Shown: positions 3,933-33,935 of the stretch, in pieces
Numbering within the stretch: the first letter of the stretch is position 1
Layout: every line of letters begins with the position of its first letter
Source: Phycisphaerae bacterium
Lineage (GTDB): Bacteria; Planctomycetota; Phycisphaerae; Sedimentisphaerales; SM23-30
Direction: 5' to 3'
NCBI GenBank assembly: GCA_016342495.1
Contig: JAEIOG010000014.1
Location: forward strand, 1-64,000
DNA length: 64,000 bases
Notes under the pieces: model-generated
Databases searched by the model: none
What the model saw: only the letters and a program-made list of their open reading frames with translations
What the model was told of the DNA's origin: nothing
Position numbers and translations under genes: made by a program

Positions 3933-5969
3933 ATGGCTGACCATTTTAATACAAAAACCAGAGATTTCGAAATCGTAAGTGCCTTTGGGCCGGCTGGTGA
4001 CCAGCCACAAGCTATTGAGCAGTTATATGAGGGATTGATAAGTGGCCAACGCTTTCAGACTTTGATGGGGGTGACCGGGTCCGGTAAAACCTTTACGATG
4101 GCCAATGTTATAGAAAAATATCAGAGGCCAACTCTGGTCGTCAGTCATAATAAGACTCTGGCCGCCCAGCTTTATGAGGAATTTAAGGAAATCTTTCCCA
4201 ATAATGCTGTTGAATATTTTGTCAGCTATTATGATTATTATCAGCCAGAAGCCTATATACCCCAGCGTGATATTTATATCGAAAAAGATGCTTCGCGCAA
4301 TGATGATATTGAACGTCTGCGTCTGTCTGCGACGACATCGCTGATGAGCCGCAATGATGTCATTGTCGTGGCATCGGTTTCCTGTATTTTTGGATTGGGT
4401 TCGCCGGAAGATTATAAAGCGGCAATGGTTCCGGTGCGAGTCGGGATGGAAATTGACCGTGATGAACTTCTGCTAAGATTTACCGAGCTGCGTTATGACC
4501 GTAATGATATAGCTTTTGAAAGAGGGCGGTTTCGGGTGCGGGGCGATGTGGTTGAGATTTGGCCTGCTTATGATGAGTTTGCGGTTCGGATCGAAATGTT
4601 TGGTGATGAAATAGATCGAATCAGTCTGATTAATCCGGTTTCAGGAGAAGCCCTGGCTCAGGAAAATCAAACCTTTATCTATCCGGCTCAACATTATGTT
4701 ATGCCCGAAGAGCGTATTGACGGGGCATTGGAAAGTATTAAGACCGAACTGGATAAAAGACTATTGCAATTGCGCGGTGAGGGCAAATTGCTCGAAGCGC
4801 AAAGGCTCTCTGCCCGTACCCGTTATGATATGGAAATGATTCGGGAAGTTGGCTATTGCTCGGGCATCGAAAATTACGCTCGTCATCTTTCCGGCCTGCC
4901 AGCAGGAGCCAAACCCTTTACCTTGATTGATTATTTTCCTGATGATTATCTTTTCCTTATTGATGAATCTCATGTTACCTTGCCGCAGATGAAAGCGATG
5001 TTTGCTGGTGATTACAGCCGTAAGAAAGTCCTGGTCGATCATGGCTTTCGTCTGCCCAGTGCGATGGATAACCGACCATTGAAATTTGAAGAGATCGAAG
5101 ATAAGTGGGACAGGATAGTTTTTATCTCAGCTACGCCGGGCCCTTATGAAATGGAAAAAACTGAAGGAGCCGTTGTTGATCAGGTTATCCGTCCGACAGG
5201 CCTTATTGACCCGGAGATTTTTGTTGAACCAGCTTGTAGCCAGGTGCCGCATCTGATGGGGCAATTAGCTGACCGTGCCGCAAAGGGCGAAAGAGTGCTG
5301 GTAACGGTTTTGACCAAGCGATTAGCCGAAGACCTCAGTAAGTATATCTCCGAACAGGGTTTTAAATGTGCCTATCTGCACAGTGAAATTGTCACACTGG
5401 AACGAATCGAAATTCTGAAGCAATTGCGTGAAGGTGTCTATGATGTTATTGTTGGGGTTAATCTCCTGCGAGAAGGGCTTGACTTGCCTGAAGTGTCACT
5501 GGTGGCAATTTTAGATGCGGATAAGGAAGGTTTTCTTCGTAGCGAAACTTCACTTATCCAGACTATTGGCCGAACCGCTCGAAACGTCAATGCCAAGGTG
5601 ATACTTTATGGTGATAAAATTACTAATTCCATGCAGCGGGCAATTGATGAAACCGATCGAAGGCGTCAATTGCAGCAGGAATATAATGGCCAGCACGGCA
5701 TAACTCCTGAAACGATTAAGAAAGCCATTCGCCACAGCTTCGACAATGAACTGCAAGCGAGGCGCATAGCTCAGGAAGCATTATCCACTGATAAATATGA
5801 TTATGATCGTGAAGAGTTGATCGCCGCCTTGCAGCGGGATATGATGGCCGCCGCTGAAGCTATGGAATTTGAAAAGGCCGCCAAGCTTCGTGACCAGCTC
5901 GCCGAGGTGCAGGGGGCACCAACATTGAAAAAAAAGAAATCTAAAAAGAAACGGAATACCAAGAAATAA
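3933..5969 (+). CDS. uvrB: Excinuclease ABC subunit B
   Basis: 678 residues, the usual UvrB length. UvrB is the damage-verifying helicase of nucleotide excision repair and acts with UvrA and UvrC. Visible features are Walker A GVTGSGKT (46-53), the beta-hairpin [12 protein letters not shown] (99-110) that probes the helix for damage, a DESH Walker B box (344-347), helicase motif VI (QTIGRTARN) and a C-terminal UVR motif (about 625-660) for UvrC contact. The tail is very lysine-rich. A sulfatase gene follows after 38 bp with its own strong ribosome binding site, so any cotranscription is probably incidental. Confidence 0.98.
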
Positions 5970-31853: not shown

Positions 31854-31945
31854 TAGCATTTCACTGTTGCATTCCTGTCATTTTCTTATTAAAATATTCC
31901 CAGTAGGTTTAATTAATTTGATTTGGAAAGATTGTGAGGTTCGAT

Positions 31946-33046
31946 ATGCATAAATGGGGCATACTTTTATTATTGTTTATATTTGTTGGCTGTGGCAGTG
32001 ATACCGAAATTACTACCGAAAAGGTTTTCAACGATAGCTCTGATAAGCTCACCCAGACTAAAATTGTACCGACTCTGGATACCCCCATGCCCGAAGGTAA
32101 TGTTATCTGGTGCAGTACCTTTCAGTTGGCATGGAATGAGTTAAAAAATGACATTATCAAATCTCCCATACAATTAACTGACCCCGTAGTCAACGCCATC
32201 GCTCAAAGTCTGAACAATGCCAAGCAGGGCAAAAATGATCTGGATACTCAGGATTACTATGCAAAAGCGGGCTATGTCGCAGATGGTATAATAGAAACAA
32301 TAAAGCAGGAGATGGCCGCTAAGTTTCCGGATTATGATACATCGCATCTAATCCCTGGTGGTGAGGAGATAATCTGGGCTTATAGCTATTTAAATGTCCG
32401 GGCTAAGTTTACTGAACCTTTTATGGAGCAGGCTTTTACTTTCATAAACTCTGATGGAACCTCAACAAATATTGAGGGATTTGGCCTGAGAGAAAGTTAT
32501 CGCAGCGGTAGAAGAGACATTGCCCGGCAGATTGATGTATTGTATTTCAAAGAATATGATGAGAAATTTGGTTTAGAAGAATTTATAATTGATCCATGCA
32601 AATTCACCTCGCCTTATCAAGTTATTTTAGCTTGCGTTGAGCCAATGGACACTCTGAATAAAACAATAGCATATATTGAAACTAAGATTGAAGAATTTAA
32701 AACAGCCGATATTCATGAATCTGAAAAGATTTTTTCTGGCGGTGATGAATTATCTGTACCTGTAACTTGCTGGAAGATTGAACATGATTATAAAAAACTG
32801 ATTGGTGTTAATCTGAAAAATAAGGGTTTTGATGAACTCTTTATTGGTAAAGCATTGCAGGATATTTCATTTCGTCTGGATAGAAGCGGAGCTTTTGTTG
32901 TATCAGAAGGAAATGCTGATCTGATGGAATGTCAACCGCGTGATTTTAAATTCAATCGCCCATTTATGATCTACCTGAAAAAACGTGATGGTGGCGAGCC
33001 ATTCTTTGCGATGTGGGTAGATAATGCCGAATTATTGAATAAGTAA
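31946..33046 (+). CDS. Uncharacterised lipoprotein with serpin-like C-terminal part
   Basis: 366 residues from the ATG at 31946, chosen because gaggt lies 5 bp upstream; a GTG at 31934 would add four residues. Leader and lipobox (LLLLFIFVGC) indicate a lipoprotein. I do not recognise the whole protein. Two parts recall serpins: NVIWCSTFQLAWNEL near the N-terminus and, at the end, FRLDRSGAFVVSEGNAD followed by FNRPFMIYLKKRDGGEPFFAMWVDN, which matches the serpin pattern F-x-(R/A)-x-(H/R)-P-F-x-x-x-I-x-x-x-x-T-G-x-x-L-F-x-G. No classic reactive-centre loop is clear. It could be a serpin-fold inhibitor or a remote relative. The gene converges on the riboswitch-controlled gene. Confidence 0.55.
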   Translation: MHKWGILLLLFIFVGCGSDTEITTEKVFNDSSDKLTQTKIVPTLDTPMPEGNVIWCSTFQLAWNELKNDIIKSPIQLTDPVVNAIAQSLNNAKQGKNDLDTQDYYAKAGYVADGIIETIKQEMAAKFPDYDTSHLIPGGEEIIWAYSYLNVRAKFTEPFMEQAFTFINSDGTSTNIEGFGLRESYRSGRRDIARQIDVLYFKEYDEKFGLEEFIIDPCKFTSPYQVILACVEPMDTLNKTIAYIETKIEEFKTADIHESEKIFSGGDELSVPVTCWKIEHDYKKLIGVNLKNKGFDELFIGKALQDISFRLDRSGAFVVSEGNADLMECQPRDFKFNRPFMIYLKKRDGGEPFFAMWVDNAELLNK

Positions 33047-33062: not shown

Positions 33063-33635
33063 CTATTTATCAGAGTTTTGCATATTATTTGGCACTTGCA
33101 GATCATAATACTGATCCAGCATCTCAGATTCATGATCCTGGTACCAGCTTTGCAGTTCGGGGTAATAATTGGATTTTGCCTGGACATAGCCCACGAAATT
33201 GTCAGGGCCGGCTTCGACTATGCGTTTTTGCAGCCAGGGCATAATCAGGCCCTTACCTTCAAGTTTTGGATGAATTGAGTGATCAATAAGGTATATTAAC
33301 TGTTTTAGCGTTAGCGGCTCGGTAGAAGTTTCAATAGCACAGGTAGGGCTGGCGCCCCAGGCAAAATGGAGCATATCGGTAACCCGATAATGAATTAAAT
33401 CACCTTTTTGATAGGCTCTAATAAGGATAACATCCTTTTTGCCACCGCCAATGAGGATTCGGGCAATAGTTTTCTGCTTTATCGCCGGGATTGCATAATG
33501 TTCGCGATCATCAGCTAAAGCCTGTGATATTTTTTTATGTGCAGAAGTTTTGGCGATGCGTTCAAAATCAAAAGCATCCCTCTGCCAATAACAATTGGGT
33601 CTGAAATCCAGGTTATATTTTTCTTTTTCGGTCAT
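33063..33635 (-). CDS. Uncharacterised protein under SAM-I riboswitch control
   Basis: 190 residues, cytoplasmic by appearance (no signal peptide or membrane helix). I do not recognise a family. It has an N-terminal charged part, a central basic segment (LIGGGKKDVILIRAYQKGDL) and aromatic-rich C-terminal segments (YVQAKSNYYPELQSWYQDH). The gene is alone: its 3' end converges on the lipoprotein at 33046. Its 5' leader carries a complete promoter, SAM-I aptamer and terminator on the same strand (33728-33935), 93 bp before the ATG. Since SAM-I riboswitches usually shut off methionine or SAM synthesis or uptake genes when SAM is high, a role in that area is inferred, not shown. Confidence 0.7.
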   Translation of the reverse strand: MTEKEKYNLDFRPNCYWQRDAFDFERIAKTSAHKKISQALADDREHYAIPAIKQKTIARILIGGGKKDVILIRAYQKGDLIHYRVTDMLHFAWGASPTCAIETSTEPLTLKQLIYLIDHSIHPKLEGKGLIMPWLQKRIVEAGPDNFVGYVQAKSNYYPELQSWYQDHESEMLDQYYDLQVPNNMQNSDK

Positions 33636-33727
33636 AATTTTGCCTTTGTGCTATCAAAGGGCTGGCAAAAACATTCACTACGGCATAAAAACTGACTAAT
33701 AATAACATTTTCTATCGATTTTTATAT

Positions 33728-33752
33728 AAAAAAACCTTCTGTTTCCAGAAGG
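33728..33752 (-). terminator. Intrinsic terminator of the SAM riboswitch
   Basis: On the minus strand ccttctg, a gaaa loop and cagaagg are followed by seven T residues. It is 3' of the aptamer and 5' of the gene starting at 33635, as in transcription-terminating riboswitches. A second cttctg copy in the aptamer's 3' flank (about 33770-33780) could form an alternative pairing. Confidence 0.85.
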
Positions 33753-33783
33753 GCCAAACACCATTTATTGCTTAACAGAAGCC

Positions 33784-33891
33784 GCATTGACCCCATCGAT
33801 AATTCGATCAGGTTGGCGTTGGCACCTTGGCGGTATACTACCAGGTTGCCGTAGCGATCATCGGGCCAATCCCTCACGCTACTCTTAATGC
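33784..33891 (-). promoter_or_regulatory. SAM-I (S-box) riboswitch aptamer
   Basis: Read on the minus strand, the RNA contains GGGATTGGCCCGATGA, then CGGCAACC, then CCAAGGTGCCAA in the order and spacing of the SAM-I core. A closing P1 helix is formed by gcatt (33891-33887) and aatgc (33788-33784). The P3 stem (tgGTAgtaTACcg) and a short P4 hairpin (atcgaattatcgat) are also visible. A promoter precedes it and a terminator follows it. It controls the unrecognised 190-residue gene at 33063-33635. Confidence 0.9.
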
Positions 33892-33907
33892 GTTATTTAC
33901 ACCTCTT

Positions 33908-33935
33908 ATTATAGCACAGCGATACAAATATGCAA
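33908..33935 (-). promoter_or_regulatory. Promoter of the SAM riboswitch unit
   Basis: On the minus strand TTGCAT (33935-33930), a 16-bp spacer and TATAAT (33913-33908). The start point would be near 33901, ten bases before the aptamer's P1. Confidence 0.75.

Follow-up and report, generated by a model that had tools for sequence, protein, structure and literature searches.

The window, a stretch of 64,000 nucleotides from a Phycisphaerae bacterium (contig JAEIOG010000014.1), contains a genuine SAM-I riboswitch unit preceding one small protein gene. Promoter, aptamer, terminator and gene follow each other in uninterrupted succession on the minus strand. The gene encodes a 190-residue protein whose link to the cellular SAM supply is probably one of response or of action upon it. 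Few cues to gene function are independent of protein homology, and riboswitches are one of them. In the present case, a SAM cue is attached to an otherwise unannotated protein family, and a distant genome shows the association again with another class of SAM riboswitch. The association, if confirmed, adds one more gene to the SAM regulon.

The unit begins with a sigma-70-like promoter with an extended −10 motif (TG), located at positions 33908-33935. Direct reading identified the TTGCAT box (33935-33930), a 16-nt spacer and the TATAAT box (33913-33908), as originally predicted; a promoter scanner gave a 10/12 score in another register, again with TG ahead of the −10 box. A transcript would start near position 33901. 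The original prediction also placed a SAM-I core with a closing P1 helix within the interval 33750-33910. Scanning with the Rfam SAM-I model (RF00162) bore this out, yielding a match at 33894-33781 on the minus strand that covers model positions 1-108 of 108 with 65.1 bits (E 7.1e-13), against a curated cut-off of 44.4 bits. SAM-I was the best-scoring family of its clan. The aptamer is complete from P1 to P4, and its alignment to RF00162 includes all of the binding-core sequences (AAGAG, GGCCC..AUGA, CGGCAACC and AAGGUGCCAA). Alignment and folding concur on the P1 helix, formed by six Watson-Crick pairs between CGCAUU (33887-33892) and AAUGCG (33783-33788). A pseudoknot is possible between a UUGG loop and the CCAA sequence in J3-4. 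The aptamer is followed by the predicted intrinsic terminator (33752-33728), recovered both by folding and by scanning and comprising a 7-bp stem, a GAAA loop and seven U residues. The hairpin, CCTTCTG-GAAA-CAGAAGG (33752-33735), has a calculated energy of -10.8 kcal/mol. Since the terminator pattern alone was found once in the stretch as compared to 1.2 times in shuffled sequences, the element derives its weight from its placement right after the aptamer rather than from the pattern.

The gene lies at 33063-33635 on the minus strand. It starts with an ATG, 92 bp from the T-run (93 bp in the original count), and is preceded at a distance of 7 nt by a probable ribosome-binding site, AAAGG (33643-33647). 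Its codon score of 0.19 per codon equals the median for long genes in the window (0.194), as opposed to 0.01 or below for the other reading frames, and none of 2000 shuffles of the region produced an ORF of this length. A plus-strand gene ends at position 33046, converging on the 190-codon gene from a distance of 16 bp; the SAM-I unit therefore has a single gene, as had been proposed. The convergent gene (31934-33046) encodes a lipoprotein-like protein of 370 residues, with a C-terminus resembling serpins by reading; a Pfam search with it gave no match.

On balance, we lean towards interpreting these features as a SAM-I attenuation unit whose gene product has an accessory part in SAM/methionine homeostasis and is synthesised at low SAM levels. 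Transcription would initiate near 33901. With plentiful SAM, the aptamer would close P1 and the 33752-33735 terminator would form; with SAM scarce, RNA polymerase would read through into the single 190-codon gene, and the soluble protein so produced would act as an accessory in SAM/methionine homeostasis. SAM binding, the direction of control, the transcription start and the role are inferred; the notion that SAM turns the gene off draws on the precedent of the S-box family and on the presence of the terminator. Step-wise folding identified a possible antiterminator, whose 3′ strand (33749-33763) overlaps the 5′ arm of the terminator and whose partner is the 3′ strand of P3 and J3-4 in the aptamer (33828-33814). 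Transcripts of about 154-166 nt, in which the terminator is still incomplete, are predicted to adopt this structure preferentially; it is separated from the aptamer fold by only 1-2 kcal/mol, a gap that SAM binding could outweigh. Such a pathway resembles that of a kinetic OFF switch, but an equal or larger gap, with the terminator arm engaged, was also obtained for 265 of 1000 dinucleotide-shuffled linkers. The antiterminator was therefore dropped as positive evidence, and switching is not established by sequence.

The lack of a significant antiterminator is one of the observations that would suit a different scenario, in which the riboswitch once served a methionine- or threonine-pathway gene, since lost, and survives as a decayed or locked remnant. 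The terminator would then simply cut off a short leader RNA, with the 190-codon gene expressed from elsewhere or barely. The distribution of SAM-I leaders also bears on this scenario. SAM-I was present in two of 98 related genomes, the only other occurrence (genome G073, contig C496, 177-278, plus strand; 56.7 bits) preceding a 126-residue ORF with no Pfam match. In six genomes of the same class, the gene behind the SAM-I leader is threonine-synthase-like; in other classes, it is often homoserine-dehydrogenase-like (gene names assigned by reading). In the present case, the nearest threonine-synthase-like gene has no SAM leader, which also speaks for this scenario. Against this, the aptamer core and P1 are intact, as are the promoter and the ribosome-binding site, and the coding signal of the ORF is normal. 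We regard the remnant scenario as unlikely. In a further genome (G291), a SAM-I match of 50.4 bits near 5293-5395 has a gene about 500 bp downstream, which by reading alone looks like a SAM-dependent methyltransferase of the cyclopropane-fatty-acid-synthase type.

The 190-residue protein had been described as soluble and unrecognised. No match was found in Pfam, NCBIfam or PHROG, nor, at E<=10, with the S-AdoMet lyase family PF23780, and a sequence search of the PDB returned nothing convincing. A profile match to Rab GTPases in the PDB (E 0.013) was treated as due to chance. AlphaFold models reached a pLDDT of 45 with the protein alone and 54 with three sequences; all Foldseek matches to these models were above E 0.1 and were disregarded. 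Scans of phages, plasmids and IMG/VR revealed no relative, and neither did searches of 161 genomes of the same order (at E < 0.01) and 392 genomes of the phylum. A match by DNA pattern turned out to be an unrelated phage primase-like protein, and other sub-threshold genome matches, two of which were inspected, lacked co-linear homology and were set aside. The protein is indeed uncharacterised, no domain or fold match having been obtained. The protein is not wholly unrecognised, however, as two distant relatives, with about 21-30% identity, were found in other Phycisphaerae, making it a member of a tiny, patchy family.

The first relative (P0001), the only match in a sample of the class, is encoded by a metagenome-assembled Phycisphaerae genome (G616; JAICIO010000233.1). 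With 397 genomes searched, an E value of 5.5e-4 per genome would carry little weight, but the relative aligns with the window protein end to end. A two-row profile then recovered a third member, in genome G747 (1459-2001 of the retrieved locus; E 1e-6 per genome), which aligns with both others; a search of 37 genomes of the family to which G747 belongs yielded none beyond it. Shuffling gave p values of about 1e-8 for the window protein and P0001, about 8e-5 for the window protein and the G747 protein, and 2e-10 for the latter and P0001. The N-terminal RPxxYW and C-terminal S..YP.L..WY stretches, both largely outside the first G616 match, agree independently, to an extent reached by 1 and 2 of 3000 shuffles, respectively (full counts: 1/3000, 15/3000 and 2/3000). 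The similarity is co-linear across the N-terminal, middle and C-terminal parts, and the shared motifs are RPxxYW near the N-terminus, YR..[DN], PL[TS]...[QE]L and S..Y..L..[WH]. The three known members come from separate families of the class; the RPxxYW family is rare and patchily inherited in Phycisphaerae.

The G747 locus had been retrieved on the basis of the protein match, without regard to leaders, and was then scanned with Rfam. A single match was obtained: a SAM-I/IV riboswitch (RF01725) of 65.1 bits, against a cut-off of 41.1 bits, on the same strand and about 0.9 kb upstream of the homologue. The locus (contig C48, 1929-3466, minus strand) consists of the riboswitch, a terminator-like hairpin and four small genes, tightly spaced or overlapping, the fourth of which is the homologue. 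By our own rough estimate, as opposed to a computation, chance would put a gene in such a position about once in 1000 cases, given a genome of 2.6 Mb with a few SAM riboswitches. In our preferred reading, two distant lineages would each have brought the family under the control of SAM, by means of a different class of SAM riboswitch. The first three genes of the operon have no Pfam match, and these could be the real targets of the riboswitch. Besides the window, only two members are available for this comparison, of which the G747 homologue lies behind a SAM-responsive leader and the G616 homologue does not, an Rfam scan of the G616 locus having found no SAM leader. The search for riboswitch-gene pairs in relatives, suggested in the original prediction, produced one such pair, in G747, although the SAM-I leaders inspected in the class mostly lie ahead of a threonine-synthase-like gene.

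These data are also relevant to the possibility that the riboswitch works and that the gene is lineage-specific cargo with no SAM-related role, acquired by a leader that was mobile or had been duplicated. Such an origin could account for the absence of SAM-I from 96 of the 98 relatives and of the gene from all others among the 161 genomes of the order, for the missing leader in G616, and for the neighbouring genes, whose order is not conserved among family members. Furthermore, among the leaders compared, the one in the window most resembles another SAM riboswitch of the same genome (see below), as if copied from it. On the other hand, the G747 homologue, which was found without regard to leaders, sits behind another SAM riboswitch class. 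We consider the cargo hypothesis possible, albeit doubtful.

The second SAM riboswitch of the genome is on contig C110 (9294-9391, minus strand). It is the second-best match to RF00162 in this genome, at 28.9 bits, and scores 73.7 bits as SAM-I/IV. The P1, P2 base and P3 elements of the two aptamers are nearly identical, with nearly every aligned base the same, and the window aptamer is closer to that of C110 than to any other SAM-family leader compared. This likeness suggests common descent inside the lineage, as if P2b and P4 had been gained or lost in the evolution of one aptamer from the other. A pattern search of about 1.7 Mb of the genome disclosed no more SAM riboswitches; this is a weak negative, since the C110 control ranks low under this pattern and escaped the earliest versions of it. 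Scanning 140 kb of the genome with Rfam likewise found no further SAM riboswitch. On another contig (C26, 15420-15612), two matches to the Acido-Lenti-1 RNA, separated by about 100 bp, point in opposite directions.

The C110 riboswitch leads a gene (9230-8574, minus strand) for a near-orphan protein of 218 residues. An 11-pair hairpin covers the ribosome-binding site of this gene, which may therefore be controlled at the translational level. The protein shows a sub-threshold match to the S-AdoMet lyase family PF23780 (19.3 bits against a cut-off of 28; E 0.0012) and 42% identity over 33 residues with an annotated phage SAM hydrolase, itself a clear member of PF23780. SAM lyases convert SAM to MTA and homoserine lactone (PMC7877911). 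In our literature search, we came across no SAM lyase reported to be controlled by a riboswitch and, for this reason, the C110 unit may be the more surprising lead. Together, the G747 operon and the C110 gene make the SAM link of the window gene more than guesswork. The original proposal that this gene is a new member of the SAM regulon is partly supported; it is plausible, and better founded than it could be from the sequence alone, with one independent association and one weak identification of a sister gene on its side and the G616 homologue, devoid of a SAM leader, on the other.

The C110 gene raises the further question of whether the window protein helps the cell cope with SAM depletion, as caused for instance by phage SAM lyases, low SAM switching on a small defence or anti-SAM-loss set. 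A SAM-lyase-like gene under the sister riboswitch and a patchy distribution, which fits defence genes, would agree with such a role, and PADLOC reported a BrxA match to the 190-residue protein, so weak (E 0.029) that we ascribe it to chance. However, no defence genes were seen near the unit, and the sister gene resembles SAM lyases only weakly. We judge this role the least probable of those discussed. Only slightly less remote is the wider idea that the lineage keeps a small set of SAM-sensing units controlling uncharacterised proteins, namely the RPxxYW family and the C110 lyase-like protein, with which it would react to a loss of SAM independently of the classical methionine pathway, perhaps as a measure against SAM-destroying phages.

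The unit differs from known systems in several ways. PF23780, represented in phages and bacteria, is touched by the weak match of the C110 sister gene and not by the window protein. The SAM-I/IV class (RF01725) includes the C110 and G747 leaders, and the window RNA shares P1, the P2 base and P3 with the former; it differs from this class in having the P2 internal loop/P2b and the P4 of SAM-I, and in lacking the downstream SAM-IV hairpin. With SAM-I/S-box RNAs (RF00162), the unit has in common a complete aptamer, including the conserved cores, P1, the K-turn and the pseudoknot strands, and, with S-box attenuators, the promoter, the intrinsic terminator and the gene order. In contrast to these, it controls an uncharacterised gene, and its candidate antiterminator, statistically unsupported, pairs with P3/J3-4 and has no evident partner in the 3′ strand of P1. 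Finally, whereas Planctomycetota S-box units of the thrC and hom types have a threonine-synthase-like or homoserine-dehydrogenase-like first gene, they belong to the same riboswitch class and the same phylum as the unit described here.
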